Positions 29,953 to 59,728 of a stretch of 64,000 bases of DNA are shown here, piece by piece; positions within the stretch are counted from its first letter, which is position 1; every line of letters starts with the position of its first letter. The position numbers and the translations under genes were made by a program. The DNA lies in the NCBI GenBank assembly GCA_019828595.1, contig JAHQRK010000011.1, forward strand, positions 682,001 through 746,000, given 5' to 3'. Under the pieces are notes generated by a model, which saw only the letters and a program-made list of their open reading frames with translations, was not told where the DNA came from and ran no database searches. This DNA is from Aphanomyces cochlioides (lineage: Eukaryota > Oomycota > Saprolegniomycetes > Saprolegniales > Verrucalvaceae).

Positions 29953-29990
29953 AAGAATTCTTTAGTAGCTAGTTGCTACTTGCCGTGAAC

Positions 29991-34394: not shown

Positions 34395-35288
34395 CTTATG
34401 CAGCCAGAACATTGGCGGCAAATTGTGCCAATTGTGATGTTGGTATTGAACCAAACTCCCTCCGAAACCATCGGAGGCATTGCGCCTATAACGGCGATGA
34501 CGGGGTCTAAACCGATGTCCCCTTTGGATTTAATTCCTATCCCTGGCTCAGCTAAAGTTGTGACATTGCAAGAGTTGTGGGATTGCCGATAACAAGAATT
34601 GGCTGCTCTACAGAATGCTGTGGAGAAAATGCACCAAGACGTACTGGATGCGTCGTCCTCGAAGCGGAAGAGAGGACGGGCCGCAAGAGCCAAGAAGAAA
34701 GGTGTGAAAATGGCTGACTTTGATGTTGGCGATTACGTCCTTTACATGGATGTCTGGGGCGTTAGCCCATCGAAGCTCAGTGTGACCTGGCGCGGTCCTG
34801 CGCAAGTGGTCAAAGCCACGTCTGGCTGGATCTTTGAGATCCAAAATTTGATCACGGGGATTGTGCGTGAAGCACACGCTAGTCGGCTGAAGTTCTACGC
34901 CGACGAGTCCCTCAATGTCGACGAGGAACTCTTGAGCCATGTGGCTCACAACGCGGATGGTCACGTGGTCGACCAACTGGTCGATTGCCGCTTCAATCCG
35001 AAGACGGCCGCCTTCGAAATCTTGGTCAAATGGCGCGGTCTTCAAGAAATCGAGAACTCTTGGGAGCCAGCAATCAACTTGCTTGAGGATATCCCACCAC
35101 TACTGAAGCGCTACGTGCAGGAGCACGTCGACAACGACATTGTGTCGGCCATGGCAGCCGCCTTGGGCCTTGAGCAATCCTTGGGGGGGATTGTTGCGAA
35201 TTTGCCATTCGCAAGAGCCTTGGAGAGCGTCCAAGAAACAATCCAAGACTCCGGTCAATTTAACTCTACATGTGCAGTGATTGGCTAA
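34395..35288 (+). pseudogene. Retrotransposon integrase C-terminus and chromodomain, separated by stops
   Basis: This is in the same frame as the upstream gag-pol. A second stop, TAA, is at 34590-34592. The downstream part has an integrase C-terminal GPY/SH3-like segment (GDYVLYMDVWG...WRGPAQVVK), then a chromodomain (VVDQLVDCRFNPKTAAFEIL followed by VKWRGLQEIENSWEPAINL). The reading frame runs about 97 nt into the right LTR before stopping at 35286-35288. Chromodomains direct integration toward particular chromatin in other chromoviruses. Confidence 0.85.
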
Positions 35289-35816: not shown

Positions 35817-36607
35817 TTACGTCATTTCACCTGATGCTGCATTGGGGTCAAGTGGCGGAAAGAGGACAATGTCAGGGTGATGGCCTTCTGATGGCAGAAC
35901 CGCTAGGGCGGCTCCTATGTCCCCCAGATGACGAATCAACTCTGGGATGAGGTCCGTGTCCACAGTTACGCGAGTCACAGTCTTGGAATCGTCAAAAGTA
36001 AACATAGCCCGCAGGGGGAGCTTCAAATGCCAGCCCATCAACTTTTCCATGAGATCACTTCGTTCTGTAGCTTGAGGGAAGAACGTCTCAATGGCACGCT
36101 TGCCAAAATGGAATGTTGTCACGACTTGAGCCTGCACAACAACTTCATCAGACGAGCTGCTCACGTCTGCAATGTGCTTGCATTCCACGTGATTGACCCC
36201 AAAGAGATCAGAGTATAAAGTCCATGGGGCAATAAATGCGTCAATACCAGACTACAGGGAGCAAACATGAGATGAGCTACGCACACACAAGCACAAGGGC
36301 GTACCAAACCATTCAGTTGTATGTTTGGATGCACAAAAAAGCGGAGGAAGGTACACTGACGGTCAGATTCACTGTAGCCATCGCGAAAGAGCCGGTAGTA
36401 CTCCATGACTGACTGATGTTCAGCATGACACCAAAGGCCACGCTGCAAGACAAGCTTGTGGGATTCAAGGCGATCATTGCCCCGCGAGAGCTCAAACACA
36501 TCGCTTTTCAGTTGTTTCTCCGACGACTTCTTCCTGATGCGGTACGTTCGCTGGTTGAATCGGCCCCGTTGCCGTCGTTTTTCGGTCTCGGTTTGGTTTG
36601 CTGGCAT
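35817..36607 (-). CDS. bZIP-type protein, copy 3
   Basis: Two exons, about 245 aa, starting MPANQTETEKRRQRGR at 36607. Basic region RGRFNQRTYRIRKKSSEKQL, zipper LKSDVFELSRGNDRLESHKL, then LWCHAEHQSVMEYYRLFRDGY. The intron after LNGL (GTACGCCCTT...TCCCTGTAG) sits at the family position. The C-terminal domain is complete (SGIDAFIAPW; HVECKHIADVSSS; AIETFFPQA; LIPELIRHLGD). It is open throughout, with no frameshift. It is the nearest intact gene to the right of the retrotransposon. Same family as copies 1, 4 and 5. Confidence 0.75.
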
Positions 36608-38910
36608 TCTTTGGTATGACTGTCATCCAGCTGCTGCTGGGCTTCTTGCTGGAACAAAATGAGCCATCTTTATGACAAAATTGTCCAGTCAAGACTCGAC
36701 TCAACAATGGCATTGATAAATTATTCAAGGTTTCTATAATACAGCAAGCTTAAATTGTCACAGTGACTTCAATAAGACCATTAAATATCATTTACCTCTA
36801 TAAATGAATACACATAACTACATTAAGTCTAACAACTTATTATGTAATATAGTAATATCAATCACCAAGTGTATCTTTCTCACTGTGAGATATCTCATGC
36901 TCAATGGCTCGTACTGGAACAAGAGATGAGCTCCATGCTGCATGATTTGCTTTGATTTTCTCTGCATGGATGCACAAAAAGAAATGCCATTGACATTGCA
37001 AACGCGACAAGAGACATCAGTATCAAACTAATGTGTCCAATCTTATCGAACAGGTTGCGGTTCCCAAACGTCAATGCACCTCGTTTTGCTTGGATGAAAT
37101 TGGAATTTCGACAAATTTATATGAAACGCACTGATTGGCTGAAATATAAAAATACCGGGATTAGTGTGGTTTTACTCATAATACAAAACTGGAGTCGTGC
37201 GGAATAAATTTGGACGCAAACAAATTGACGCAACAATTGACGTGTACAAATTTCAAGTGAAAATATATTGAATGTTTCAAAGATTATTTTTTCAAATATT
37301 TAAAACGCTTGAAATTACACTATTTAAGGTACTTGATCGAGGGCAATACAAGAAAATGCTTGCGGAAACCTTAAATAGTGTAGGCGTCAATAAATTGAAA
37401 CATTTTCGAAATATATCAAAATTCCAGTTTTGGACCCAAACGACAATATAATTTTGTTTTCGTGGAGTTCTCGGCGATTTGTAGAAAATCCCAGTTAGAC
37501 ATCTTCAAAAGGATGCAGCGATCCGGGAAATATAAGACCATCAACAAACCCTAACCCTCCATTGAACCGTGAAAATGAATCGTATTAATTTTAACAAGAA
37601 ATAAATATGACAGGAGGTCAACCATCGTTTCATCGCCAGATAAACGCGCAAACACAAGTAAACTACGGTGCTCCTAAATAAGCTAAAGGTTTTAAATGCT
37701 GTCGTAGATGAAGGGTAAGTTGTTGTTGAAAATACAGGCATTATTTTCAAAGAAACGATATGCAAATGGGATGATACATTGTTCAATGATTCAATGACAC
37801 ATCTTCAAAATGAATGCACCAAATATAAAATTATAGAGTTTTCCATGTTTCTTCAACAGCACTGAAGAAGAGAATCTGATCGATCACATGACACATATGT
37901 GTAATTCTTCATTTTTGGCAATTTTCATAGTATATGAAGTCTTGCACGTTTATCTAATACAAGTTTCTTCGTCTTTTTACAAATGCAATATTCAATTTAA
38001 CAGGTTAAAATTTATTACAGTTTATGGAGTCGGTGTTCAGCTTGAAATTGTCCAATCAGCGAAGAATCACCTGTGGTCATATATTTCCCGGATCACTGTA
38101 ACTTGATGACTGTCTTGGGGAAAATGGTCAAGTCTAAGAGGTTGAATAGCACCCTCACATGGACATCTAGCGACCCGCCATGTCGAGAGTAATTTTGACT
38201 TGCTGTCGTATGACAAGCACATAGACCATACGAAAATGTGTTTCATCTGATGGATGATGGCTGTCTTGATATGCGCATTCAGTTTCATGGTGGCCGCACG
38301 AAAGATCTGCACTTTGCCATGGCATGTCCATCCGATCAGCAGTGGCAACACTGTGGCTCTCGTTGGTACGCTGACTTGTACCTGGATTCTGTTGTCGATC
38401 GATCCCATAAATGATCCAACTTGACTTTCATCAACTTTTCATATCTCTGCAGCCATGCCAGATATCATTGCGCGTGCAAACTGTCTTGTCATTTTCAGAC
38501 ACAATTTCAACTTTATATGCTTCCGACGAGAGCAAGTCAGCGAGGAATACTGCTGGTGCTTGATTGATGTCATAGTCAAGTTTGCAATCAGAGCTGTGAG
38601 AGAGCTCTCCATCATCTTTCCTCCATGTCATGAGCAGTCTTGATGCTTTCTCCTGTCGATATTGTGGCAACGTACAAGCAAGAACGATCACCAATCAATG
38701 CTAATCAGCTTGTTTCAGCCACTGAACAAAAATCACGTCGAGTAAAGTGTGAATCCTGCCTCAGCGTGGTTTCGCAGTCATGTTGTTCGTGTTCATGCGT
38801 GATGTTTTCAACCCAACGCCACGATATTCAAGATCATAAAGCAACAAATCCATATACTCGTCAAAATTGTCGGGATTACAACATGCATCTTGGATAGGAG
38901 GCTTGAAAAA
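36608..38910. other. 2.3-kb AT-rich region without a clear gene
   Basis: Runs of A/T and scattered short frames. Minus-strand frames at 38067-38408 and 38431-38694 have no recognised motif. A CAAACCCTAACCCTCC stretch near 37543 is too short to be a telomere remnant. Confidence 0.4.
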
Positions 38911-39110
38911 GGATTAGCGTTTCAACAACATGACAACAGGTACCACGAACATAACAAGGTGAAAATAGCAGAGCCTTGCCTTTTGAAACAAAGCTGACAG
39001 GGCGTCGAGTCTGGTGGATGCGTTGAGCTTCATCACAGCTAGAGTAAGCATGAGGTAAGTTCTCTCAATCGAAAATGTTACGTCATATCACACCAGGATT
39101 GACGAAACGA

Positions 39111-39913
39111 TCATAACATTTCAACATAATCACGAGGGACACTTGGACGCACGATTGGGAACAGCGCAAGGTCTGGGTGATGTCCTGGAGGCGGTAGAAT
39201 CGCCATCACGTCTTCAAAATTCCCGAAACATCCCAGGAGCGAAGGGATCATATCGGGTTCGGTCGTCAGATGCGTCACTGTCCTGGTGTTGGAGTCAAAT
39301 GTAAACACTGTTCGGATCGGCAGCTCCATTTGCCATCCCAACAACTTGTTCACGAGGTCTCTTCGATCTATCGCTCTTGGAAACAATGTGCTGATGGCGG
39401 CCATGCCAAAGGTCATCGTCGTCACAGTTTGAGCCTGAATCACTGCTTCGTCCGACGAGGAGCTGAGATCGGCAATCTGTCTGCATTCTACACGATTCAC
39501 GCTGAAGATAGCAGCGTACAACATCCAAGGGGCAACAAATGCGTCGAATCCAGCCTAGGGAGAAAGAATAACATGAGCCCAACTGGAGCTAGAACGCTTA
39601 ATCGTACCGAACCATTGAATTGGACATCGGGATGGATGAAATTGTGGAGAAAAGTGTTCTGTCCCTCCGATCTGACGTAGCCATTCGTGAAGAGGCGGTA
39701 GTACTCCACGACAGCTTGATGCTGAGCGTGACACCAAAGTCCTCGTTGCAAGACTAGGACATGGGAAGCTAGGTGGTCATTGGCCCTGGAGAGCTCCAAG
39801 ACTTGGTTTTCCAGCTCTGCTTTCGATCTTTTCTGCTTTGTTCGTCGGATGCGCTGGTTAATCCTCATCTTCAGCCGTCGTCTCTCTTCCGTTCCTTGGA
39901 CGGGAGCTGTCAT
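39111..39913 (-). CDS. bZIP-type protein, copy 4
   Basis: Two exons, about 249 aa, starting MTAPVQGTEERRRLKMR at 39913. Basic region RINQRIRRTKQKRSKAELEN, zipper QVLELSRANDHLASHVLVL, LWCHAQHQAVVEYYRLFTNGY. The intron follows FNGS (GTACGATTAA...TCTCCCTAG). C-terminal domain AGFDAFVAPWMLYAAIF to SVPRDYVEML. The frame is intact. It is almost identical to copy 5 through the second exon and differs most in the basic-region flanks, consistent with a recent duplication. The tandem-duplication unit also includes its promoter. Confidence 0.8.
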
Positions 39914-40683
39914 CTTGAACGTGTGTAAACAAAATGGAACATTCTACATTCACGTCATAATAGATCGCTCAAAACAGCGTTCGAGGCTCTCGGCCATGAT
40001 ATCCATGGCGTAGACTCATTCGCAGGGTTCCCGTCCGTTTGTAGCACGGAAGCCTCGAGGTGTTGATGCCTTGGCTTGGTTCCACTCGAGTTTCCCGGTC
40101 GGGTTGAGTGATTCCCATCGACTTTCCATCCATGTCCATTTTGGACACCATTATGTTCGGCTAAGTCGAGCACCGAAAGAACGCGCAGTTTGCAAGGGCA
40201 CGCCAGTGCGATGGCAATGAATGATCTGTGCATGAAGGCGTGATATACAGCCAAATATCGATGTGGAAGGTTGAGTGTATTGCGCTCACCGCATCGGAAT
40301 CCTCATTGTTTTCATGTTGGCGGCATTTGCCACGACAAAAGCCCACTCGTGATTGAATCGAGCCGTTGTGGCTCCAATCTTTCGCACCACTTTCGCCATC
40401 ATACATGGCCATTTGTCAAGAATGCGTTCAGCAGACTGCATCATTCATCCAAGGATAGGCGGCTTGACTGAGACCTTTCGATCGAAATGCTTGGAACTTG
40501 ACTTGTCCATCATCTCTTGCAGCCTGCTTACTTGCAGAAAGTTTGCCAACCCGCAATGGTTCATCCCATTGTCCGTCGGTTGACCTTTCTTGCTCGATAC
40601 ACCATGCTGAAAGAGACAAGATTTATTACAGTAGGGAGAGACGACTTGTATGTCAAGTCAGGACTTGTAGAGACAACGATATG

Positions 40684-40768
40684 GTAATTCCTTGTAATTC
40701 ATGGACCCGCGCAAAGCTGCATGGACATGGCCTCCCATCGCGAAAATCACCTGAGCAGTCGAAAACAA
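40684..40768 (-). pseudogene. Fragment of a Piezo C-terminal exon
   Basis: The minus strand reads FAMGGHVHAALRGSMNYKEL, corresponding to FTIGGYVKAALRGSVNDVLYKELP in the real Piezo exon at about 42867-42945 (quoted here only as the shared residues GG-AALRGS-YKEL). An internal deletion and substitutions are present, and the following intron start is recognisable. It is a leftover of the segmental duplication. Confidence 0.75.
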
Positions 40769-40799
40769 TATGCGTCTTGGATTGAATTCCAGAACATGG

Positions 40800-42957
40800 T
40801 TGCTTTAGCGTTTCTAGGCGTGACCACAGATGCCACGAGCATAACAATGTTAAAACAGCAGAGACTTGCTTTTTTGCTTTTTGGCACTGGGCAGAGAGCG
40901 ATGGCGTCGAGACTGGTGGATGTGTGATGAGCGCCATCACAGCTAGCGCAAGGATGTGGTAAGTTCAATATCACACCAGGATTGACGATACGATCACAAC
41001 ATTTCAATGTAATCACGAGGGACACTTGGACGCACGATTGGGAACAGCGCAAGGTCTGGGTGATGTCCTGGAGGCGGTAGAATCGCCGTCACGTCGTCTA
41101 AATTCCCAAAGCAACCGAGGAGAGAAGGAATTAATTCGGATTCCATCGTCAGATGCGTCACTGTCTTGGTGTTGGAGTCAAATGTAAACACTGTTCGGAT
41201 CGGCAGCTCCATTTGCCATCCCAACAACTTGTTCACGAGGTCTCTTCGATCTATCGCTCTTGGAAACAATGTGCTGATGGCGGCCATGCCAAAGGTCATC
41301 GTCGTCACAGTTTGAGCCTGAATCACTGCTTCGTCCGACGAGGAGCTGAGATCCGCAATCTGCTTGCATTCGACACGGTTCGTGCTGAAGACAGCAGCGT
41401 ACAACATCCAAGGGGCGACAAATGCGTCGAATCCAGACTAGAGAGAGAAGAAGCATGAGCCCAACTGAAGCGAGAACGCTTAATCGTACCGAACCATTGA
41501 ATTGGACATCGGGATGGATGAAATTGTGGAGAAAAGTGTTCTGTCCCTCCGATCTGACGTAGCCATTCGTGAAGAGGCGGTAGTACTCCACGACAGCTTG
41601 ATGCTGAGCGTGACACCAAAGTCCTCGTTGCAAGACTAGGACATGGGATGCAAGGTGGTCATTGGCCCTGGAGAGCTCCAAGACTAGGTTTTCCAGCTCT
41701 GCTTCCAATATTTTCTGCTTTGTTCGTCGGATGCGCTGGTTAATCCTCCTCTTCAACCGTCGTTTCTCTTCCCTTCCTTTGACTGGTGCCGTCATCTGGA
41801 ACCTCTGAAAGATGGCAAATGATTCCACGTGACACGTCATAATAGATCGCTCAAAACAGTGTTCCAGTCACTTGGAAGACCTTGTTACTGTCCGTCTTTG
41901 GCACGAGAACCTCAAGATGTTGATGCCTTGGCTTGGTTCTACTTGAGTTTCTCGGTCGGTTTGAGTGTTTTCCATTATGTTCGGCTAACTCAATCACCGA
42001 AAGCGAACAAAGAAAGCGGTATGAAGGCATGATTTGCAGCCCGAAATCGATATTGAAGACGGAGTGCCATGCGGTCACCACCTCGGAGTCCTCGACGTGT
42101 TTATGTTGGCGGCATTGCATCCAAGTTGCACAAAAGTAGCGGTACTAGATCAGTTCTGCAGTCTCAGTAGATCACCCCCTGACCAGTCTGTTGCTGCTTT
42201 GTGACTATAGTGTGTGTGAACCTTCCTCATTGGCTCCTCGACAAAAGCTCATGGGAACACTCGTGATTTCATCGAGTCGCAGTGGCACCAATCTTTCCCA
42301 ACTTTCACCATCATACATGGCCGTGAGTTCACCAGACTGCATCATTAAGCCAACAATAGGCGACTTGATAGAGACTCTTCAGTCGCGAAGCTTGACACGT
42401 GATTTCTCTCTCTTTTCTTGCCGCCTACTTGGAGAAAATTTGCCAACCTGCACTGGTTCGTCCCATCGTCCGACGCTCGCCCCTCGTTGCTCAAGGAGAG
42501 ACTAGATTCATGAACAACGCTGGTTTCATGGGAGAAAGCGAGAGAGAAGACTTATCTTTGGACTTCTAGCGACATTGGCAAACCCGTCTAGTCTGTCTTT
42601 TCTTTGGTGTTTGGAATGTGAATGACGTTGGGTCCCGTCACTTTCAACAATGTTTCTGGGGACCGCAACACACGAATGAGCGTTTCAAAGAGGCGAGCTT
42701 CATCCTGTGAGTTTGAAATGAGCATCGACATGCAACAAAAGGTCGATTTTACCTTGAGATGGCCAATGTATTCTTCCGTTCGTGCAATATAAATCCCCTG
42801 GCCGATCGAATGAGCGATGAATCATTGACTGCAGACTTACCTCGACCAAATCCATCAGATCGTCAGGATTTGGCAATTCCTTGTACAATACGTCATTCAC
42901 GGACCCGCGCAGAGCGGCTTTGACATAGCCTCCAATCGTGAAAATCACCTAAGCAGA
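40800..42957. repeat. Segmental tandem duplication, copy B
   Basis: Partner of copy A. It contains bZIP copy 5 and the true 3' end of the Piezo gene. Copy A lacks about 300 bp present here between roughly 42570 and 42865, the part encoding the last two Piezo exons. Confidence 0.8.
40994..41795 (-). CDS. bZIP-type protein, copy 5
   Basis: Two exons, about 249 aa, starting MTAPVKGREEKRRLKRR at 41795 (an in-frame ATG at 41840 would add 15 residues). Basic region RINQRIRRTKQKILEAELEN, zipper LVLELSRANDHLASHVLVL. The intron after FNGS is GTACGATTAA...CTCTCTAG. Second exon SGFDAFVAPWMLYAAVF to SVPRDYIEML. The frame is intact. It is a near-identical tandem copy of copy 4. It ends about 800 bp upstream, on the plus-strand axis, of the Piezo 3' end. 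Confidence 0.8.
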
Positions 42958-45900
42958 CTCTAAATATTTTTTCCAGCGACCTTGAAATCGTACGAAGATA
43001 TAAGTCGCAGTAATGCCATATGTGCCAATGCCCAGTGTTTTCAAACCAGCGACAATGTTATCCGAGATCGTAAAGAAACAAAAACCTGACACGCCGCACG
43101 ACAGAGTCTTGGAATTGTCTGTGATGCTATATCCAATATTCTGTCAGTCCATGGTCCATCGTTGGGTTATTTACTCTGTCCTGTTGGCGTACGCAATGCT
43201 GTCCGACGACGACACGGTCCAAAAACTTCCACTGAGTTCTGTCAACCGCTGAATCTATCGAAACGGCCATGAGAATTTCATGTGGAGCTCATAGATTTAC
43301 TTGAATATTGCGGTATGCATACTCTCCGCGCATGGTTGGAGCCGTGGCGGCGGCCACATTAATCACGGGAGGATACATGTTTTTAATGGTCAGAACAGCA
43401 GAGTTATACGAGTTGTAGGCAAACTCTTGCGTGATGGAAACATCCATCATGATTGCAAGTTTTGCACGCTGGGCTGGTGTGATATCTTGAACAATGTCGT
43501 ACGACACCTAGGATTTCATGATCTCCATTTTTTCTCGGTCGTCTTACCGTTTGAACACCTTCAGGAGCTGTACGCTTTAGAGTAAGAGTCATACTCCATT
43601 TAATTCGCTGCGTTGAATTCAAACTCGCCATTAATTTTCGCCGCAGAGGAGGCGAGCTACTCCACATGTCGTTCGAGTACTCCATAAATGACACTTGTTG
43701 AATATACGTTTCCGAATTGGACGAGACAACTTTGGTCGTCTCGGGGCTTTGGTTTTCCTCTAGCGTGAAATCATTTCATGAGGGCTAACTCCGCGGGGAT
43801 GGCATTACCGCTGTTGTAAAACTGCTGGAATGTACCATCAGGTTGCAATAACCCAAACGTCATGGATGCATGGATGATAGGATTATTGATCGTGGTTGGA
43901 TTCGCAGTACTGAACATGATCATGGGTGCTAATAGGCATAGCAACAAGGCTAGAAAGCACAGCCCTGCAGTTTGAAACTTGGCATAGAGAGGTTGGCGTT
44001 GATTGCCCTACAGAATCACAATTGTTTCGTGATGGAGAATGCGCGCTATTACCTGCAAAATATAACCTCCTTGAATGCGAGCTTCCATTTGCAATTTCAC
44101 GAGGAATAAATGAGCTCCAATGCCCTCTAAGACGAGCCACAGCCGCATGTCAAGTGCTGTCGTCGAGCAAATGTAGTCTAAGAGAGTCCGGACTTCAAAG
44201 GCGAACGGAATTGCCATGTAAATCCGAAAGAGATATTTGGACAACGTGCTTGCTTGACGCAAACTGTATGGGTTTCCACGAAAGACGACATAGCCATATT
44301 TGATTTGGTTTGCACCGATGCCCATCGAGACACATTGGAGGAGATATAGCCCAACTAAATATGGATTCGATTGGAAATAGACGCCCGTATGAAGGGGAAG
44401 AACTAGCCAAACCATCACGTGAATCATAATCAAGGAGAAATAATGGCATAGGAGTTTGGAGTACAGAGAGCCATAAACAAAGGAGACGCGGTCCCAGACA
44501 ACAATAACGACTTGAAAAAATATCATGCCCACCATGTAACCCGACAAAAGAGACGTCTGGAACGTCGAGCTGAGTGAAAAGAGGGTCGAATTTTCCCGAG
44601 GCACGCCAAACTGGTGAAAGAAGACTATGATGTAGACCAAGATTAAAATGTTCATGCCAAAGGCGACGAGAATAAAATCTCGCCCTGGCTTCGTGCCCAT
44701 GACGGCGCTCTTGATATCTTTGTCCCAGTTTTGTGGAGGCACTGGCAATATTGTAGCGTAATAATCTTGTATCCAAGGTGGAATCTATGGTAATTAAGCC
44801 TTATCAAATCAAGAAATACTTACATGCCGACCAAGCCATATCTGAAAGCGACTTTTTTTCACCAACTTGATTTGCTGTTCCCTTGTAAATCGAGGCTCAG
44901 CTAGCGTAAGCGCCCCTTTGGAATCGTGGACATCGTGCTCAGAGTCAAAACTTTCTTTAGCCTCCATGGTTGCCTCACTCAGCTCGTCAATCGTAGACGG
45001 CTTTTCGTGTTCTTCGTCGCTATCATTGTCGTCGTCATGATCAAACGACGGAGCCAGTGGACTCAAATTTAGGTTCGGTAATTGCTGGTCATCCCGAAGA
45101 AGCCTTTCAATGTGACTATTTAAATCCATAACGACTTGAGGAGATGGAGTTTCAGCTATCGCTTGCTCGGAAGTAGAGGGCTCTAGAGGTGAAGTAGGTA
45201 CTGGGACAGTGACTAAAGCTGGAGATGGTGCTGCAGTAGTGACTGGAGCTGGAGCAGGAAATGGTGGTGGTATCGGTGCAAGTCCTGGTGGAATAATTGG
45301 TTTAGATGGCTCGTTCGACTTCGCCAAGTAGTCAGCGAGCTCAAAATCATGTTCGTCTAACGAATCTTTGGAATCGCGGCGTTCCAACCTTTCAGTTTGC
45401 TCAATTTCCTGTACTTGAGTGTCGTCGGGTGGATTCATAGGATTTAGTGGCTTTAAATCTGTGACGGGAGTGATCGAATCCAGATTGAGCTTTCGAGAAC
45501 TAAAAATCTTCTTCCACCAGATTGTCTCTGTCCATTTCATGGCTCTACTTCGTGGATAGACCCAAAAGCCACGTAATTGGAGTTCACGTCGATGAAATAA
45601 AATACAGCAAATGACGAAAAAGTTCCACTGGAGGCCTTTCAATGTCGTATCAACAAGAGGGTTTGCGGAACCATCGAATTTATACAATCCGAAGAGCACG
45701 ATAGGCTGTACTTGGCTTTGGCTCAGAAGGGCCGAGCTGAGTGGTGCCTCAGGACAATATGGCTGAACACTACAGACATGTTACATCTCCGCTTGAAATG
45801 GAAAGAATACCTTGGATATAATGATTTAGATTTTGTGTAGTGGTGACAAAAGAATGGCAATTGAAACATATACCGAATAAAGACCACAAAGAATGACTAC

Positions 45901-48900
45901 AACATGGAGATAAGCTTTGGAGAGAATGGAGAGCCTACGTATTTTAAAACCCACTTCCATAGGGTAGCTTGTGGTCTTGGGTTCTCACAAAGCAAGATGG
46001 CAAACATGAACAGTACATAGACCAAGTTGAGTCCGTCGCCCTATATACTTCATCGTCAACTTGTCAAACTAATCCGGCGCGTACTTGAAAGGAAAATGCG
46101 GCAACAAATGCGGCATAGCAAAGAAAAGCTGTTTGGCTGCGAACGACATTTGCCAGCACGAGGAAAAATTCACTCCATGATGGCAATTTATCACTCTCTT
46201 CATCATACGAAATCGTTTCGCTTTGTAATGTAGCGTCTTGCAGCGCCTATATTATGTCAGAAACTTGTTGAGCAATACATGTCCTACATAAGCAAAGCAA
46301 TATATATGGAGATAGAATGCATCTTTCAAAGCAGGATCGAGCCAAGGGGTTGACTCGAGCTCTTTGGGACTTTGTGGTGGGCCAATTGCAGGCGGAGTAA
46401 GTACATGTGTCAGAATATGATCCGGAATATCCAACTTTTGAGCTTGTCGATACGCGAGTAAACGCGGGCCAAGGGCCTGTGGAGGTACGACGTACAAAAG
46501 CGAGATAATCCACTTGTCGAATTGCGATGCTTCTTCAGGCTGCAGCGAAAAATAGACTCTCGAGCCTTTATCAACAAAAACAAGCTCAATGCAATACAGC
46601 AACGGTGACATTTCATCTAGCTGTAGCTGATGCTCAGACAATTCCATACTTTGGACCTCCGATAACCAATATGATGGAGGTCCATTTAATTTCTTCAGGT
46701 TGTGCGTTGTGCGTCGTTTCATTCTGTGTTTTGTATTATCTCGGCGGTATTTCAATGCTAAGATTTCGCTCTTGTACAATGTCAGAGAATCGGCATCGAC
46801 GATGGCGTAGCGCTAGGATATAAAGTTAGAACCGAAACAATTATTTGCATATTACTTGAGAATATGTTGCCGTGACAAACCACGGAAATAATCGCTCGAT
46901 GTAATTGACAAAAGATCGCTGACCGTCATAAGTCTTGTGGGCTTTCATCCACCCTGCCGTGCACGAATCACCCCAATCAAGCTTGATGGTAGCTAATCAA
47001 TTTAGTCTTTCGAGTTACTATCAAAACTCATACCAGCAGGTTCACTTGGTGCACTGAACGGCCCTTCACCCATACGCGACACAGCTGCGACTTTGAATTG
47101 ATAGCTCGTTCCAGGACGCAAGCCCTTGATTTCAAACGTAGTTTTTGACGCAGGAACTTCAACAACATCCCCGAAATCTCCCAAAAGAGTCAATGAAGGG
47201 AATACTTGCCGTGAGATTCGATAGCAGCGAATTCGGTGAATTTTACTCTCGGGAGCTCCCCATGTTATTGTAACTGAATTTTGTGTTTGATTTAAGACAA
47301 CAGGACGATGTGGAGCCATGGGAGGCAGAGAATAATGAAGCCTAAATACAGATAAAATAGGCTTAAACGAAATGTTGAGTTACCCCATTGCAATGTCCAT
47401 CATTTCTTCAACTTTATTCACCAACTTGGAGACAATAACTTTAAGTCTTTGAATTGCCGCTTGTTTTTCTTGCTTGAGAAGTCTCCACTGTGTAATCCTC
47501 ATTTTGGCTAAGTTGTGATTCAGCACAAATCCACGTTTCTGGCATCGCTCTAGCTCTGCACGATTATTCTAACAATGAATTATGGAGTGTTCAAGAAATT
47601 AAACAAATACCTCCAAAACAATTCGATAAGGAGACGAAGCAAATACATGAACTTGCATCGCAATCATGATAAAAATTGCAATGGACAAAATTGTCGAGGT
47701 ATGCTGATCGCTTGAATTGACTTGTGAACCATGGGAAATTTTGTACAAACCAAGTGCTACAGGCAATGACAAGCACACTCCTCCGTTATCAGGTTGATTG
47801 GTACCAAGCGTACAGCTTTTGGTAATATCATTGAACCATGGACATTGATAGACAAGGAGGAGAAATAGATAAAACCAATTGTACGTTTGCAAAGATCCGA
47901 GAAGAGCAGGTTGCCAGTCCAAGCGGTCCAAATGAAATAGCATGTAAATTGCCCAGCCTAGGTAAAGACCCGACGCAACCCCAAACTGGGCGCATCCTGT
48001 TACAAATACCCACACCAGTACAAAACAAATTGAATACTTGGCCATGAATACTTGCAGCGATGACAATTTGAATATCTTGTGCGATACCGAGGTTTGGGAG
48101 GCTTGGGTCCCGTCTTGGGAAGCTGGAATGGGCGTTGGAACTAGGTAGACTGCAAAGAGCGTCAGGAAGTCTGTTAAAATTGACCACCTGTTTTGAGATT
48201 GTAGCATCAGCCAGTACTGGTAAGATGGGTCTAGCCATTGGCTAGGGCGTAAAGTGGCAAAGGGAGGAATGAGCCACTCGGGAAACCACAAAATGAGCAA
48301 ATACTGAGACGTGGGGATAATTACAAGGACGACCGTCAGAATGCGCACATAGAATGCGTGGACTTTCGGATCATTCCAATTCGCAAGCATGACATATCGT
48401 AGAATAATCATGTACACGACAGAAATAACGTTGAGGTGCACGAATGACGAAATTAGGAGCATTAACATGACAATAGTCACGTATGCGTCTTGAGTAAGAA
48501 GTGGCTGAATATATTTCAGATAAATTTCCCACAGTGGTGGATCTGGAATGGGCTCTGAGGCCATCAAAGTACCAAACCGTTGCAGGCCACAAAGACTGAG
48601 CATGAGTAGCGGAGTCCAGTTCAAATTCCACAAGTTATCATATTCTGTTAATCGAGATAAACCAAGCCATGGAAATGTTTGTGATGCAACTTCAGAGTCA
48701 AACCATGGGAGATTTAATTGCAAGAAGTACATACACAGCAGCATCGCCCCTGATGTTGAGAAGAGATAGGGCCACGCAACTTTGTAGTTGCGCTGGAGAA
48801 CTGCCAAAACACCACTGAGGTAATATAAAAATCCCATGAAGGTCACTTTGCTAGTGGCGAGAATTACAGCGAGGCAAATTATCGAAGCGGATCCATGCGA

Positions 48901-51900
48901 AATACCTCGACAGATCCAAGCTAATTGTTTGTCATATTTTGTGGTGTATATATGAACAGGTTTATCCATTGATGAGACCTGCCACGCTGCCAATCCAGCC
49001 ATCTATTCAGAAATATTACATCAATTTAGAAGAGGAGCAACTTACAAAGCAAGTAGGGAAGAGATAAGCGAACAAATTCGACAAGTGTGTTTTGGAGGAC
49101 AATTTTTGGAATCCAATGTCTTCCATGGTACAAAAATCAGTCGTCCAACTTGCATGAATAGCATCATAGATGGGATCAAACTGATACAAATATCGAAACA
49201 AAAGCACCGCGAGCTCGATAATCAGCACAAGGCGCCACAATTTACGATAGTGATTCGTTCCTCGGGGGAAAAGCACCAAGTTGGTGATATGGGAGTCGAG
49301 CAAAGCGCAAAATAAGATCAACTGGAGAAAGCCGACAAATGTTGCAGAGTCTCGGCGGATTTCCCAGTTGAAGGCCAAGACGATGATAATAAAGTAATTG
49401 AGCACAACACCTCCAATTCGAAACAAGCGATCCATCTCCATTGTAATACGAGAAATGTAGTAAATTGGTTGCTTCTCCTTGGTTTGCGATACATCCCGCA
49501 CGTGCCAATTCCGCACATAAATAATAAGTTGTAGAATGACTTGAGCAATCAAGACCAGCTGTGCGTCAAATAATGATGAGCTCCATAAGGATGTCAATGA
49601 CGGAGCTCGGATAACGTTTTGAGCACTTTGAGCCATCGCAGCTGCAGAAATCAAAGGATCCACCTCGTCTTTTGACACAGCCGTGCTACTTTGAATAGCT
49701 TGTGCTCCACCGAGCATGTCGAGTGCGTCGCTATCAAAACGAGACGTTGTCGTTGGAGCTTTCGTAGTAGTCGAGGCTTTTGTGGTAGTCGGGGCTATGG
49801 TAATCTGTCCATCCAATGCGTTACTATCACCATTACTACGTCGGGTTGTTGATGGTTTTTTTGTAGTCTCTACAGCTTTTGTAGGAGCTGTTCCAGTAGT
49901 TGTGTTAGTCGTCGAATTAGGAGCTTTTGCCTCGGCTGGTTTCGCCGTCGTAGTTGGCGTCAACGTTGTTGTGGGTTTGACTGTAGAGAAGTAGGATATT
50001 GCTGTTGTAGTCGCTGGGGCGGCTGTCGGAAGCGTGGTCAACGGGGTTATCGGATTTTCGTTGATCTTAGCATTACGATAGCAAGTCAATCCAATCAGTT
50101 CATAGAGGGGTGTGCTCTGTGGACATGAAATGTTCCACGTATAGAGAGTTAAGCAAGTTGCCAAAGTATAAAGCAGCAGAACCCTCCACAGTCTACGACG
50201 GTGTTGCTGGAATAATGATAAATAAGTCGCCAGGATAAGAGAACCCGTTTGAAACAAGTTGACGGATGTACTCAAGACAACAACTAGAGTCAACAGGTTG
50301 AATGAGGTCAAAAAGAAGGAAGAACGAACCGTAAATTGTGAAGAGCACCATCGTGTCGACGTGCGATATCACGATGATCTTGGCATCTCGAAACCAGAGG
50401 CGTACATTGATGTAATAAGCATTGAGCTAGACAAATATCAGCCATGATCAACGGCATTTACGTACTTGATCGTCGAGAAACGAGAGTGGAGCTGGTTTAA
50501 ACTCCTCGTTGGGATTGTTGCTGGTATTGACAGCAGTAGGATGACGTGGGTATCGCAGTCGAGCTCGCTGGCAGAGACAAAGCAACACCATAGCTGCATT
50601 TTGGATCACGAGATCGATTGTGGCATATTCCAGCGTTGTGAAATAATTGTCGAAAATGCTCGAGATCGCTGGAAGGAGCAGAAAATATTCAACGAGGGCG
50701 TAGACGACTCCATAAACCGTCATAATGGACAGCAACCACGATTGACCAAGCCAGAATTCGTTGGCATCAAGGCCATGGGTCGCTAAAGCAAGCATCGCCA
50801 AGCTGAACAAACCAAGGCTGGTGTAAGACGGATATGAAATCGCCCAAAACATTGCGATCGACGTTGCCACGAGTTCGCTTCTCAAAATGTGCACCACGAC
50901 TGGGACGACACCAGACGAGCGCAGTGGCTCTACTTGGTACGACGCATAGAACGACAACATTTTCGTCAGAGAGAGAAACAAGCAGATCTGCGCAATGATG
51001 AAGACGTAGCCAAGCCAATCCTTCGTTGTCTAGTCAAGACAGTTGCTTAAAAATGGAGATTGGCAAAGATGTCATACCCCAGGCATGACAAAGAAGCCCA
51101 AGTACGTGCCAATGACGCCGACGATTTCAAAATCTCTAAAGACAGAGTACTGATAGACGTGGCTATGGATAAAGTTTAGTGCAATCGAGTCCTTGGGGTT
51201 GTTTACGTACAAGAAGAGGAGGACGGAGCCGCTGTAAATAAGTAAGCCGATGACCATGGCCTTGCTGAGGAGAGGTTGATGAGGCAATGCCATGTTTGAT
51301 GCTGGATTTGGAGGCACAGGTAAGTTGGCGCTTGGACGTTGCGCCGCTGGATCGATGGCATCGGCTGTGCCGATCGTGTTGGTTGCATCGGGCATGACTT
51401 CAGTACTCTGTGGAATCCCAGGGTCAGCAGAAGACGGTGCTCTCACTTCAGTGTCATCTGGTTCACTCTCCATCGTGCGATACGTCGGTTCTGCACTCGT
51501 TGATGGGATCGAAGGCTTTCTAGCCGTCAGTGCGCCTTCCATGGAGGCGAAGACGTCTTGACTGGCCTTCTGGACTGGACGAGCTGTCCAAAATACCCAA
51601 ACAACCAACCGACTGATGATCAAGAGGTAATATAAAGCACCCAGCGCACCCCGCGAAGCAAATGCAGCGATGAACAAGCAAAGACCGATGATCACTTCGG
51701 AAAAGAAGACAAAGAGCCCATGGATCGTTTCGTACAGATCGAGTCGCATCAAGAACGAATACAACGCTGGAAACTTTGCAAAGATGAACGCAAGCATACG
51801 AACCCCAGAGACTTCTCGACGCAGCAACGGACGCCTACGAGAGCACGCAGCGTGAATCAAAGACGAAGAGCGTAGAAGACGTACACGCGGAGCTTCGGAA

Positions 51901-52273
51901 CGTGGCGCTGCAAGTAGAGTAAACATCCCGTGCAAAGAAGAATGCATGCATCTATGACGACATTGAATGGCGTGAGATGCAGACCACACAATTGAAACCA
52001 AAAGTCAGCTTCGTGTTGCGGCAATCCAGCGACGACACAGTGTCCAGCGATAGCCAATATCGAGACTAAGAGCATGAGAACCCATACCGATCTCAACGTG
52101 AACGAATGAACGATTCCGCCGAGAAAGGCCGCCAAGTAAAGCGTCGCGATGACGCTGGTCGATCGAAATAATGCACCGGCGAGCAGACATACGCCAAATA
52201 CATGATGAACATGTTCTTTCACCTTGAGTTTCCGACCAAATGCCCACACTGTAGCGAGTCCTCGGCGCCACAT
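42588..52273 (-). CDS. PIEZO: Piezo-type mechanosensitive ion channel with embedded FN3 and PH domains
   Basis: Hand-splicing gives about 22 exons and roughly 2,900 aa, starting MWRRGLATVWAFGRKLKV at 52273. Piezo features: an N-terminal membrane array beginning HVFGVCLLAGALFRS; repeated four-helix membrane units; IPFAFEVRTLLDYICSTTAL near 44160-44215 (the conserved PFE region before the anchor); an extracellular cap (SSPPLRRKLMASLNSTQR near 43640); and the C-terminal LYKELPNPDDLMDLVE, IYIARTEEYIGHLKDEARLF and LRSPETLLKVTG. Piezo is a trimeric stretch-activated cation channel. After the fifth large exon a coiled coil (ELERCQKRGF...LVNKVEEMMD) leads to a fibronectin-III domain (about 47000-47320) and a PH domain (about 46540-46960), then Piezo membrane sequence resumes. 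A Thr-rich segment (49720-50060) and a Pro-rich acidic linker (44930-45400) are further insertions. Every splice kept frame. Confidence 0.85.
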
Positions 52274-52531
52274 GACGGATCGAATTGTCAGAATGCTTAT
52301 CGCATTCCAAGCTGTTGCGTTTTGCGGTTACAAAGATCTCAACTTGAGCATACATCCACAAACATAAGATCTGACTGAGAGAATGCCCTCCATGAAGAAA
52401 TCCGCCAGGATATCTGCACAGCATCTACACAGCCATGGCCCGACTCTACTTTGTTTCTCCATGGTTCAACGCCGCTGTTCAACGTGATGACGAAGTCCAA
52501 ATTAACAAACGTCGACATACTGTACTCTATT

Positions 52532-52792
52532 TCATCCTTTGCCCATTTCTTGCAATTGAGGGAAGCATTCTTCAGGCGAAACGCGGGGATGCTTGGACTC
52601 TGCATGCGCGATCATCTGCGGTCCTTTACTCGTGCTGGCAAACGGTTGGCGGCAGATTTGGCATTGAAAAGCTTGCGCGTCGGCGGCCGCTTTCGCTTTG
52701 GATTCGCTCGAAGCGGCTGTGCCACGTTTCGCCGCTTGCTTTCTTTCCTTTTCTTTCTTCTTCAGCTGCATCTGCAGCTTGCTCATCGACAT
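52532..52792 (-). CDS. Small zf-met2/ZNF706-like zinc-finger protein
   Basis: Single exon, 86 aa, start at 52792 in the context CACCATG. The N-terminal half is basic and helical (QLKKKEKERKQAAKRG). The second half has one C2H2-type finger FQCQICRQPF...QMIAHAESKHP followed by SPEECFPQL, as in plant At2g23090-type and animal ZNF706-type proteins. These small proteins are widely conserved; their role is poorly defined (nucleic-acid binding or translation-related regulation). It lies just upstream of, and in the same orientation as, the Piezo start. The gene has a TATCCGG-motif cluster in its promoter. Confidence 0.8.
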   Translation of the reverse strand: MSMSKLQMQLKKKEKERKQAAKRGTAASSESKAKAAADAQAFQCQICRQPFASTSKGPQMIAHAESKHPRVSPEECFPQLQEMGKG

Positions 52793-52925
52793 GGTGGCTT
52801 GCGGCTTGGTCGAAGGCGGAACAAGGAATCGGATTAATCTCTGGGTGTCCGGATAAATCAGGTCGTTATACGGATATGAGTCAGGCTGGCATTCCGCTTG
52901 ATAATTTTTTTATCCGGATGACCTT
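52793..52925 (-). promoter_or_regulatory. Promoter of zinc-finger gene with TATCCGG motifs
   Basis: GTGTCCGGATAAA (near 52848), TTATACGGATAT (near 52866) and TTTATCCGGATGA (near 52909) lie 55-120 bp upstream of the start at 52792. Spacing and sequence resemble 119-276 and 11781-11917. Confidence 0.5.
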
Positions 52926-54373: not shown

Positions 54374-54618
54374 TGGGCGCTTTAACACTAAATAAGTGCG
54401 TTCACGCTTTTCAAATGTCTTCCCCCCATAATTCGTCCTGCACAGCAGCAACCATCGTCGAGATGCGATCAAAAGCATTCCATTGGCATCTCCAGACACC
54501 AATTCTGCGCCACATTTTGAAGGATGTCCTCTGAAGCACGTTGGAAGCGTTTCTTTGCTATTCTTCGAAATTGGAATGCTTTCATTAGTCAACTTCGTCG
54601 ATTGTTCAATTGTCACCC

Positions 54619-55641
54619 ATGCTACCAAGATCATCGACCGCTGCAGCTTCATCGTCCGCGTCGTCAGCTCTAGCCAGATACTCTACATTGCAATGGATGC
54701 AATGGTCGATCGCCTTCTTTGTTGTCTCGAGCGTGATCTTTCTCTCTCAGATCTCAACGAAGCTTCGTACCCAAGAGGCAGTCTCCATGATTCGGCATAA
54801 CCACCTCAGACCAGCTCCTCTTGAAGAGCCGCACCAGCTTGTCCGTGACACTGTGGCGGGTTTTGAAGCTGCCAAGCTCTACTTGGCCAAAGCAGATTTC
54901 AAAGACGAACAACCAGACTTTATCGTGATCATGAGTGGCACGCGTCCCAATGGAGAATACTGGTGCCGCGATTGCCAAGTGGCCAAGGAACCTCTAGCCC
55001 AAGCGTTCACCGCAAAATCTCGACACCATTTGCTCGTCACTGTTGGAAGCCATGCCGAGTGGGTGAAGAGCTCGAATCCTTTCCGAACGGACCCTCTCTT
55101 CCACATCGATGAGATTCCAGCTCTCCTCCGCAACAACGGCAACTTGAACACGTCGATCATTTTAACGGGTGGCGCTTTCCTCTCGGACACAGACATGTTG
55201 GACGCAGTCCTTGGACCAACACAGATGCAGCCAGCTGTCGAGCAAGTTGATACCTTTGACGGTATGATGTCTGTCCTTGAGCAGCATCAATCTTCTGGTA
55301 CCACGAGCGACTTGTTTTTGTATTTTATATCAGGCTCCACTCCGTCGGGCGAGTTATGGTGCCCATTTTGCGCCAAGGCAGACACCCCTGTCATGCTGTA
55401 CTACGAGAAATTTGCCAGCAAAGATGCCAAGCTCTTGCGAGTCGTGACTGCTGCCACATATGAAGACTGGCATAGAGACGACAATCGGTTCAGGACCCAA
55501 ACTGTTATCGAGATTTCGGGATTGCCCATGCTCGTCCGTGTCAAACCACACCAAGATCAGATTGCATTTGAAGAATTTACGACCTTCTTTGAAGAAACGG
55601 CGCTCCTCAAAGCGTTCTTCCAAGGCGAGGCATTTGCATGA
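54619..55641 (+). CDS. Membrane-anchored double TXNDC17-like thioredoxin, paralogue 2
   Basis: Single exon, 340 aa; the first ATG is at 54619. A Ser-rich N-terminus and a membrane segment (WSIAFFVVSSVIFLSQIS, about residues 30-50) are followed by two thioredoxin-fold domains: EYWCRDCQVAKEPL (C-x-x-C, near residue 117) with SSNPFRTDPLFHIDEIPALL, and LWCPFCAKADTP with DDNRFRTQTVIEISGLPMLV. Domain order, anchor and active-site spacing match the gene at 4969, so the two are paralogues about 50 kb apart. A thiol-disulfide role in the secretory pathway is inferred. Confidence 0.8.
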   Translation: MLPRSSTAAASSSASSALARYSTLQWMQWSIAFFVVSSVIFLSQISTKLRTQEAVSMIRHNHLRPAPLEEPHQLVRDTVAGFEAAKLYLAKADFKDEQPDFIVIMSGTRPNGEYWCRDCQVAKEPLAQAFTAKSRHHLLVTVGSHAEWVKSSNPFRTDPLFHIDEIPALLRNNGNLNTSIILTGGAFLSDTDMLDAVLGPTQMQPAVEQVDTFDGMMSVLEQHQSSGTTSDLFLYFISGSTPSGELWCPFCAKADTPVMLYYEKFASKDAKLLRVVTAATYEDWHRDDNRFRTQTVIEISGLPMLVRVKPHQDQIAFEEFTTFFEETALLKAFFQGEAFA

Positions 55642-56210: not shown

Positions 56211-57253
56211 CTAAGTGCTTCGCTGGTGTCGAGTAAAATGGGAATAGAAGTACGCAATCGTGAACTGCTCGTAAAATGGCTTTGTATTTCCCGCGAGTGG
56301 TTCACTGAATCGAGCGGCCATGCAAGTTTTGAATGCATCGCGCACTTTGGGATCTTTTCGCTCTTCCTCCGTCATGCCAGTCTTCAACGAAGGAATGAGC
56401 ACCGATGCTACAAAGTTGACAGCTCCAGACGCATTGTCAAAGTTGAAATCTAATGTCACGTGCTGGTATTCATGCAATTCAAGCTCTGGGACTTCAGCAG
56501 CCGCCTCCATGAACTCTTCAGTCGTGCGGAGAACAGAAGGCACTGCTATGCGGTGTAGAGATTCACTCGACAAGGCACCCATCGCGACCATGTCACGCAG
56601 TCCTCCGTTGACCACGTTGAAGTACTCGAGCATGTCAAGATTGCCATTGTTGGAGGCATATGTCCTGCACAAAGCTCCATGGTCCACCAATTCCGTCGCG
56701 CGATGCCGCAGGAAACCAACGAGATCTTCATGAGCTACTTGCCGCCATGCATCCAGGACATTCCGAGAGACATTGACTTGGCATTCAGGATCGTCGCAGA
56801 AGACACTGGGGCCAGGCAATGGCGCTGGGATCTTGGACAACCAGTGCGTTGAAATATACGAGACAAAGATGTCCACGGAGGCGGCTGGCATGACGCGCTC
56901 GTAGAAACTCTTGGAGATCGCACCAGTGTACACATTGGGATGCGCTTGAACGTACGACCCTGAAGAGTTGAGTGTGTTCAACAGAGTGCCAAAGTCGTCG
57001 GAGGGTTGATCTTCATGGAGGACGAGGAATTCGTGGCGTTTGTCGTTGGGGAAACTTGGCTCAAGGTGCTTGAGGACATGGCGAATAAGTTGGAGAGAGT
57101 TGCGTCCTTGCGATGCCCCAAGGTCGACAATGCAGTAGTTTGCCTTTGGTGGATTTTGCAAACCGAGTCATGGCGCGATGGAGAAGGTCGGTTGTCTTCG
57201 ACAAGATCCATTTGACAGATTGCTGCCTTGTTGTACGCTCCATCGCCTTCCAT
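56211..57253 (-). pseudogene. SABATH-type carboxyl methyltransferase, copy 1, 5' frameshifted
   Basis: The body is a SAM-dependent carboxyl methyltransferase (Methyltransf_7): SAM-binding CIVDLGASQGRNSLQLI, the D-P-S-D-D-F block (HEDQPSDDFGTLLNTL), ISTHWLSKIPAPLPGP, and a C-terminus PFYEQFTIAYFYSHFTRH. The expected start MEGDGAYNKAAICQMDLVE (57253) is in a different frame. Against copy 2 there are deletions of 2 nt and 5 nt between 57200 and 57130, a net shift, and the long frame has no nearby in-frame ATG. Unless an unusual intron or an assembly error is involved, it is a recently broken copy. The family methylates small carboxylic acids in plants and some microbes. Confidence 0.7.
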
Positions 57254-57994: not shown

Positions 57995-59044
57995 TTAAGA
58001 TTGAGTCTGTCGAGGACGTCGCGACAAGTGAGCATAGAAGTAAGAGATCGTGAAGTCTTGGTAGAATGGCGTCGTGTGGTCCCCGACGACTTTGTTGAAT
58101 TGGTTGGTCATGCACTCGATGAAACCTTCATGGACACGAGGATCTGCCTTCTCTTCCTCGGTCATGCCGCCTACCAAGCAAGGCTTCATCACTGACGAGA
58201 GGAAATTCACCGCGCCCGAGACTTGGTCGAATCGGAAATTCAACGGAACATGTTGGTACTCGTGCACTTCGAGCTCGGGGACGTCGGCAGCAGCCGCGAG
58301 GAATTCGTCCGTCGTGCGGAGGTAGGACGACAACGCCATGCGGTCCAACGATGCGCTTGAGAGCAGTCCAGTTGCGACCATGTCTTCCAAAGACCGCGTG
58401 ACCACGCCAATGTTTTCAAACGAGAGCGGCTTTTCGTCGTTGGACACAAACGTCATGCACAAACTGCCATTGTCGACCAATTCGGTCGCGCGATGACGAA
58501 GAAAAGTGACGAGATCATCATGGGCTCCCTTGCGCCAAGCGTCTACCACTTCTGGAGAGGCATTCGCCTTGCGATCTGGGTCGTTGATAATGACGAGCGA
58601 GCCAGGGAGAGGGGCGGGCACCTTGGACAACCAGTGGGTCGCAATGTACGTGACGAAGACATCGATGGACGCGCTTGGAACGAGGCGTTCATAGAAACTC
58701 TTGGAGATGACTCCAGTGTACACGTTTGGTCGCGAGTGGATGTAAGACTCTGGCGAGTTGAGCGTGTCCAGGAGGGAGGCGAAATCGTTGGCCGGTTGAT
58801 CCTCATGGAGGACCAAATACTCAGGAGCCGAGGTGAAATTGGCGTCGAGGTGGGCGAGGACTTGGTGGATCAGTCGAAGCGAGTTGCGGCCTTGCGACGC
58901 GCCAAGGTCTGCAATGTTGTAGGTCGATTTTGTCGGTGCGTGTTTGGCAAAGCGGGCCATGGCGGCTTGGAGAAGGTCGTTGGTTTTGTCGACCATTTGC
59001 ATTTGGCACATAGCCGCGCGGTTGTACACTCCGTTGCCTTCCAT
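57995..59044 (-). CDS. SABATH-type SAM-dependent carboxyl methyltransferase, copy 2
   Basis: Single exon, 349 aa from MEGNGVYNRAAMCQMQMVDK (ATG 59044); upstream in-frame ATGs, such as 59131, would add residues not seen in the paralogue. SAM-binding motif YNIADLGASQGRNSLRLI; HEDQPANDFASLLDTL (the DxPxNDF motif); FVTYIATHWLSKVPAPLPGS (the WLS-x-x-P aromatic-substrate region); PELEVHEYQHVPLNFRFD; C-terminus PFYQDFTISYFYAHLSRR. It catalyses transfer of a methyl group from SAM to a carboxylate; the substrate cannot be told from sequence. The protein has two to three relatives within 8 kb. SABATH enzymes are best known from plants, so horizontal transfer is a possibility to test. Confidence 0.85.
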   Translation of the reverse strand: MEGNGVYNRAAMCQMQMVDKTNDLLQAAMARFAKHAPTKSTYNIADLGASQGRNSLRLIHQVLAHLDANFTSAPEYLVLHEDQPANDFASLLDTLNSPESYIHSRPNVYTGVISKSFYERLVPSASIDVFVTYIATHWLSKVPAPLPGSLVIINDPDRKANASPEVVDAWRKGAHDDLVTFLRHRATELVDNGSLCMTFVSNDEKPLSFENIGVVTRSLEDMVATGLLSSASLDRMALSSYLRTTDEFLAAAADVPELEVHEYQHVPLNFRFDQVSGAVNFLSSVMKPCLVGGMTEEEKADPRVHEGFIECMTNQFNKVVGDHTTPFYQDFTISYFYAHLSRRPRQTQS

Positions 59045-59499
59045 CGTAATGATCCAGGGGCTTCTCCGAGGCGACTCCAATTGAAAAATGAGCATACGAA
59101 TGTATCGCGTCGTGATCACTTCAGAAAACATACGCACTTACTCGCGTGGCCGCCGCATCATTCCATTTCTTGCGGCTTCTGCGGATTGCGTTCAGCCAAT
59201 AAGCTTTGAGTTGGATGGTCTGTTTGTATTAATAGTATTCTTTCGGGTGCGTAAAATTTCAAAAATCAACTCACGTCAATCGCGCCAATACAGTACATTA
59301 GATCTTCCTCACAATGACCAACTATTATTACTACTAATAACTGTACTAATAGTATTCATTTGGTGACCAGGGCTTTGATCAATAAACTCGATCACATGGA
59401 ATATTATTCCACTCTTTTTATTCAAATACTTCGATATAATAGATTACACGAATTTCAAAAAAATACATCAGATTTTTTATATGTACGAAATTACCGGTA
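59045..59499. other. AT-rich spacer
   Basis: Sequence between SABATH copy 2 and the pogo-like element. It contains repeated ATTAATAGTATTC-like tracts (near 59228 and 59348). No gene seen. Confidence 0.4.
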
Positions 59500-59511: not shown

Positions 59512-59728
59512 GGTTGAGTGACTCCCACTTGTAGAACAATTACACTTTAAGGAGGCAATTTAGTTGGACGAAAATGCCAATACAAAAAACAAGTATAATT
59601 TCACTGGTGTACATTTGACGGACTGAAGAACATAAGAACACTCAGTGGCATTCCATTTCAATCAACTGAACAACATTTGCGGCTTTTCGCTTGCTTCTGG
59701 CCGCTGAAAGTCATCAAACAAACGAAGA

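Follow-up and report, generated by a model that had tools for sequence, protein, structure and literature searches.

The locus analysed here raises the question of whether a Piezo channel gene of the oomycete Aphanomyces cochlioides carries fibronectin type III (FN3) and PH domains in the middle of its chain, as an initial annotation had proposed, and, if so, whether this is a peculiarity of one gene. The gene lies in a stretch of 64,000 nucleotides (C3:682001-746000, hereafter the window) from an assembly of 76.2 Mb in 94 contigs. The peptides quoted in that annotation are indeed present, on the minus strand and where it had put them, within a single Piezo gene (gene A); the start of the PH domain, in exon 9, had gone unquoted. 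The FN3-PH insert appears to be an ancient and conserved remodelling of the oomycete Piezo, not a single-gene oddity.

Our splice model, which was derived from the genomic sequence, predicts that gene A consists of 23 exons joined into a single open frame of 2904 amino acids (Table 1). All 22 introns are GT-AG and 39-52 nt long, and an in-frame stop at 52330 lies upstream of the start ATG at 52273. The deposited A. cochlioides protein AC1031_002727 is residue-identical to the spliced gene A product as far as residue 2746, including the splices of the insert. It terminates within intron 18 and is therefore without the final 158 residues, which are coded by exons 19-23 (42588-43300). A 32-nt version of intron 10 (giving a protein of 2907 amino acids) was dropped for one of 41 nt (giving 2904), a choice common to the deposited protein. 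Part of exon 5 (approximately 49690-50040, minus strand; residues ~685-800), between membrane parts, is Thr/Pro-rich with repeated TTTKA-like units.

Table 1. Piezo gene A and the parts of its predicted product (window positions)
Feature	Coordinates	Strand	Evidence
Piezo gene A	42588..52273	-	splice model; identity to deposited protein through residue 2746; Pfam Piezo domains
Exon 6, transmembrane units preceding the beam	47611..49002	-	PF15917 Piezo_TM25-28, weak (E=0.45, under cut-off)
Exon 7, beam helix, residues 1480-1541	47384..47568	-	aligns to the predicted 70-residue helix of relative P0085
Exon 8, FN3 domain, residues 1543-1643	47034..47341	-	PF00041 match
Exon 9, PH start (first strand and long first loop)	46856..46992	-	sub-cut-off PF00169; strand prediction in P0085
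Exon 10, remaining PH including basic loop (ALKYRRDNTKHRMKRRTTHNLKK), then near-neutral linker	46288..46812	-	sub-cut-off PF00169; predicted model; loop charge
Exons 11-13, approach to and start of THU8	45811..46246	-	PF23188 THU_Piezo1, E=4.8e-19, residues 1901-2050
Exon 14, end of THU8 and low-complexity loop	44824..45769	-	PF23188, E=0.0033 on exon alone
Exon 15, THU9 and anchor	44053..44784	-	PF24874, E=2.1e-46 on exon alone
Exons 16-23, remaining pore module, cap domain, C-terminal end	42588..44007	-	PF12166, E=1.7e-48, profile 10-298/298

Piezo channels are mechanically gated, carry a cation current and have about 38 transmembrane helices arranged in four-helix units. In gene A, a single frame runs from the beam through FN3 and PH into THU8, THU9-anchor and cap. 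The THU8 and cap matches of Table 1 hold in the full-length protein, the cap match reaching the last profile position, and there the THU9-anchor domain PF24874 was matched over profile positions 2-238/238 (E=7.5e-51). A rough hydropathy scan, which is not a topology predictor, marked 48 overlapping segments, none of them within the insert. Judged by its sequence, the gene A product is a Piezo channel subunit of an oomycete type, with an FN3-PH module after the beam.

The FN3 call was borne out when the domain profile was applied. Exon 8 scored 59.6 bits against a PF00041 cut-off of 25 (E=3.5e-16), the domain was also found in the full-length protein (Pfam E=4.4e-14), and the stretch has the seven-stranded sandwich of FN3 domains. 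Its likeness to solved FN3 domains (titin, Robo, receptor tyrosine phosphatases and contactins) is one of FN3 sequence and fold; in contrast to those of adhesion proteins and titin, however, the Piezo FN3 is one domain within a channel. Kinship with titin was considered and dropped. Titin chains top the sequence lists largely because each chain has many FN3 copies, and in single-domain scoring the best titin stretch (22.1 bits) did not rise above the adhesion proteins (PTP delta, 26.5 bits).

For the PH domain, the outcome depends on whether gene A or its family is considered. In gene A's own protein PF00169 fell below its cut-off of 25.1 bits in every slice scored: exon 10 alone gave 13.6 bits, the spliced 577-residue piece 16.1 bits and the spliced slice 19.9 bits (E=0.0011, profile positions 16-101), and the domain is absent from the Pfam matches of the full-length protein at E<=0.1. 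At the family level, however, 16/16 family slices matched at E<=0.1 (best 5.6e-9), and PF00169 is listed for 16 of the 37 Piezo rows found with the insert-region query described below. A PH fold is made of seven strands capped by one helix. The predicted order of strands and helix agrees with this fold, with weak structural scores and with the first strand outside the modelled exon 10 (it is predicted at 320-332 of relative P0085). PH domains top both the Foldseek and the VIA lists for the exon 10 model, again with weak scores, and the PH profile had no match under 0.001 among PDB sequences. Strand and helix order is likewise what the domain shares with the PH domains of Sin1/Avo1, BTK and DAPP1, from which it differs in its long first loop, in a basic loop after the third strand and in its weak scores. 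Many members of the PH family, although not all, bind phosphoinositides. The basic loop has a net charge of +5 to +14 in 35/35 rows; in group A, the Saprolegniales group that includes gene A, its letters and length differ and the positive charge is retained. Because this loop is basic, a coupling of gating to phosphoinositides, as had been suggested for this gene, is plausible.

A second Piezo locus in the same genome bears on whether the insert belongs to the gene at all. The genome has two Piezo loci (two PF24874 matches, and four PF12166 matches that all fall at the same two loci), and paralog B (C34, locus L005) has the FN3-PH module at the same position as gene A. Its beam and the first half of its FN3 domain form one uninterrupted exon, and the second FN3 half, the PH domain and the linker share another; thus, an intron interrupts FN3, and beam and FN3 are joined without one. 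It could be argued that gene A is a gene-model artefact, with FN3 and PH coming from another gene between two Piezo halves or never being spliced in. Two deposited Phytophthora kernoviae models do omit FN3, and gene A would stay in frame if exon 10 (525 nt) were skipped by itself; a transcript form without exon 10 is possible. We nevertheless consider an artefact extremely improbable given the uninterrupted fused exons of paralog B, the occurrence of the same insert, whole or partial, in 36 further records, and the loss of frame computed for gene A when exon 8, 9, 8+9, 9+10 or 8+9+10 is skipped. Both P. kernoviae models, moreover, retain the PH tail. The fused exons, together with the frame and the further records, led us to reject a two-gene or mis-joined reading, and the earlier proposal of one Piezo gene with in-frame joins stands: one frame leads into THU8, THU9-anchor and cap, and the deposited protein uses the same splices.

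The insert is also not special to gene A. A query with residues 1480-2080 gave 48 matches, namely 37 Piezos (gene A's own included), all of which list FN3, and 11 non-Piezo FN3 proteins. For a census in which the insert was left out of the query, we searched with the last 614 residues of a Piezo from Pythium oligandrum. This returned 67 Piezos: 31 that list FN3, the two P. kernoviae models, which lack it, and 34 others (including those of animals, the eukprot row Nk52, Halteria and Perkinsus) for which neither FN3 nor PH is listed. Absence outside oomycetes was read from a precomputed domain column for these 34 records and from our own FN3 and PH profiles for 10 of them, where nothing was found at E<=10. 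Among oomycete-type records, gene A included, 37/39 have FN3 and PH, whole or (P0032 and P0037) only partial; records from one species repeat, and these counts are not counts of species. In the remaining two records, from P. kernoviae, the beam jumps into the second PH half and the PH tail is kept, for which reason we read them as gapped gene models. The search of other oomycete Piezos that the initial annotation had recommended thus places FN3-PH in the same position as in gene A in Saprolegnia, Achlya, Thraustotheca, Pythium, Globisporangium, Phytophthora and the downy mildews.

A tree was made from the C-terminal part of 38 chosen rows; the program issued a warning that long outgroup branches meet. 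All 28 rows of oomycete type fall into a single group (100/100). Within it, the Saprolegniales make up groups A and B, whose sister relationship is modestly supported (81/74). The Pythium, Phytophthora and downy mildew rows together with P0036 form the rest (100/100). Group A is confined to Saprolegniales among the rows treed. The insert would therefore have been present before these oomycete-type groups parted, and goes back to the common ancestor of Saprolegniales and Peronosporales or earlier. It may be older than the oomycetes, since no named non-oomycete stramenopile Piezo is among the 67 census matches.

With regard to where the module came from, two possibilities were considered and rejected. 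Exon 8 of gene A coincides with the FN3 domain but has phases 2 and 1; given these phases and the intron placement in paralog B, exon shuffling of an FN3 exon is unsupported. A standalone donor protein did not emerge either, as a search with the 380-residue module matched only P0085 and P0086, both read as Piezo fragments; this search was word-based and limited to proteins of ~209-665 residues, and a distant donor could escape it. The genome as a whole has at least 35 FN3 matches, two of them in the two Piezos.

Conservation is uneven along the protein. Mean pairwise identity among oomycete rows was 0.67 for FN3, 0.58 for the beam, 0.56 for THU9-anchor, 0.51 for both PH and THU8 and 0.47 for the first cap part. 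A further alignment (A2) left out P0009, P0032, P0037, P0049 and P0050. Between groups, identity was 0.56-0.63 for FN3, 0.31-0.38 for the cap and 0.33-0.39 for PH. FN3 comes top of ten regions by identity, yet we do not regard it as the most conserved block: in sliding 95-residue windows over 35 rows (the partial inserts P0032 and P0037 left out) it ranks 52/2620, behind the C-terminal end, where the top windows lie, and about level with the beam. Beam and FN3 together form the other conservation peak, within the best 2% of windows. The interval from beam to THU8 spans 348-416 residues in the 35 rows with complete inserts versus 102-441 residues in 10 other Piezos. The linker after the PH domain distinguishes gene A's group from the other oomycete Piezos in that it is without acidic charge; net charge is -1 to +4 in 7/7 group A rows and -6 to -15 in 28/28 rows outside the group. 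A conserved acidic SEWSSVTGDES-like motif follows the PH domain in many rows of group B (in L005 at ~4700-4830, minus strand) and of the Pythium-Phytophthora Piezos and is absent from the group A rows shown. This stretch looks like a regulated linear motif.

The order of THU8, THU9-anchor and cap in gene A is that of animal Piezo1 and Piezo2 and of insect Piezo. The segment between beam and THU8 is where they differ: the available text of PMC8924262 describes, for vertebrate PIEZO2, a 44-residue linker, which acts as a plug in the lateral portals, together with latch, clasp and disordered stretches, and in gene A FN3-PH is found instead. The view that animal Piezos have a disordered loop here is accordingly correct for the disordered stretches and leaves out the beam-to-latch plug linker, the latch and the clasp. 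In the predicted model of P0085 the beam helix and the first strand of FN3 are only 13 residues apart, which would place FN3 at the site where the plug linker starts. By homology, the module probably lies on the cytosolic side, as the initial annotation had it.

We favor the possibility, at a probability of roughly 55%, that FN3-PH is a cytosolic module through which the beam is attached to anionic lipids in the inner leaflet, in place of the animal plug, latch and clasp. FN3 would cap the end of the beam, where there would be no room for a plug linker of the animal kind, and the basic loop of the PH domain would hold the beam end to anionic lipids. The state of these lipids, or a bound partner, could then set the share of blade force that reaches the pore. 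Most likely, FN3 offers one face to a conserved binding partner, be it a cytoskeletal protein or a different part of the channel, and PH acts as the membrane anchor. In animals, PIP2 tunes PIEZO1, according to the available portions of PMC12164982 and PMC12772150.

Other readings of the same evidence have to be weighed. It is possible, and we hold this only tentatively, that FN3 and PH together are a protein-binding scaffold (for cytoskeleton, kinases or the channel's own C-terminal domain), with lipid incidental and force arriving mainly through a tether. Such a scaffold would suit the conservation of FN3, which is far above that of PH, and the 33 residues of the FN3 stretch (212-311 of P0085) that are invariant in 35 rows, more than the fold alone would be expected to need; there is also the precedent of PIEZO2, where cytoskeletal force acts through another cytosolic loop (PMC8924262, available text). 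What speaks against it is the basic loop, whose charge is kept in 35/35 rows despite changed letters and length and thereby suggests a target recognized through charge, for example lipid. The insert might instead be a structural spacer needed for correct assembly or trafficking, without a regulatory role, and the long and variable segment of other Piezos is in keeping with this; conservation in the top 2%, however, is not expected of a spacer, and we consider this explanation very improbable. A more elaborate version of the lipid-tied module also seems unlikely to us. According to this version, an oomycete lipid-reading gate would have replaced plug, latch and clasp, with FN3 on the beam end beside the pore, the PH loop gripping inner-leaflet phosphoinositides and the conserved acidic, Ser-rich linker after the PH domain (SEWSSVTGDES...) acting as a brake that can be phosphorylated and that vies with lipid for the basic face; group A paralogs of Saprolegniales such as gene A, having lost the brake, would be constitutively lipid-anchored.

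Earlier work gives a partial view of these genes. PMC4820453 reports homologs of human Piezo-1 in P. infestans (one) and S. diclina (three), and neither "fibronectin" nor "PH domain" occurs in its available text. PMC13413365 deals with Piezo and oomycete calpains, and "fibronectin" is absent from the text of it that is available. Among the titles and abstract openings listed we found no paper on an FN3-PH Piezo architecture, and a description elsewhere is possible. One public record, however, is a Plasmopara protein named 'putative pleckstrin domain, fibronectin type III, immunoglobulin-like, Piezo family', and annotators have therefore met the combination. The claim that no Piezo of this architecture has been described thus holds for the papers listed and fails for protein names; as far as we have searched, the FN3-PH Piezo is usual for oomycetes and undescribed as an architecture.

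Several other genes in the window deserve mention. Just upstream of the Piezo gene and on the same strand, 52532-52909 encodes a small zinc-binding protein (zf-met2, PF12907, E=4.1e-13). Two A. astaci Piezo records (P0003 and P0032) list PF12907, and this suggests that the gene order is kept and that the A. astaci models are fused. Further upstream are two TXD17-like thioredoxin domain matches (54589-55641, plus strand; PF06110, E=2.3e-27), adjacent SAM-dependent carboxyl methyltransferases (56211-57167 and 57995-59137, minus strand; PF03492, E=1.2e-36 and 1.8e-41), which we take to be of the SABATH kind best known from plants, and a Tc5 transposase DNA-binding domain (PF03221, E=1.8e-8) with a centromere-protein-like helix-turn-helix (PF18107, E=1.8e-8) at 59708-60184 (plus strand). 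On the other side, 36161-41867 (minus strand) holds at least three similar copies of one gene whose start resembles, by eye, a basic-leucine-zipper stretch; no Pfam family was found at E<=0.01 in the two copies scanned. At 29973-35288 (plus strand), again by eye, a long frame looks like a retrotransposon polyprotein, and behind it comes another frame whose text is chromodomain-like.

In animals, the contributions of Piezo's cytosolic parts and of phosphoinositides in the inner leaflet to force sensitivity are under study (PMC8924262 and PMC12164982, available text). A candidate lipid-binding domain built in after the force-carrying beam, and kept across the oomycetes found, amounts to a natural experiment on this question. 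The two paralogs of one species, which differ in the acidic linker, allow a comparison, and lipid control of Piezo becomes directly testable. The finding also bears on the sensing of contact and turgor by the hyphae and zoospores of oomycetes, including major pathogens of crops and fish.
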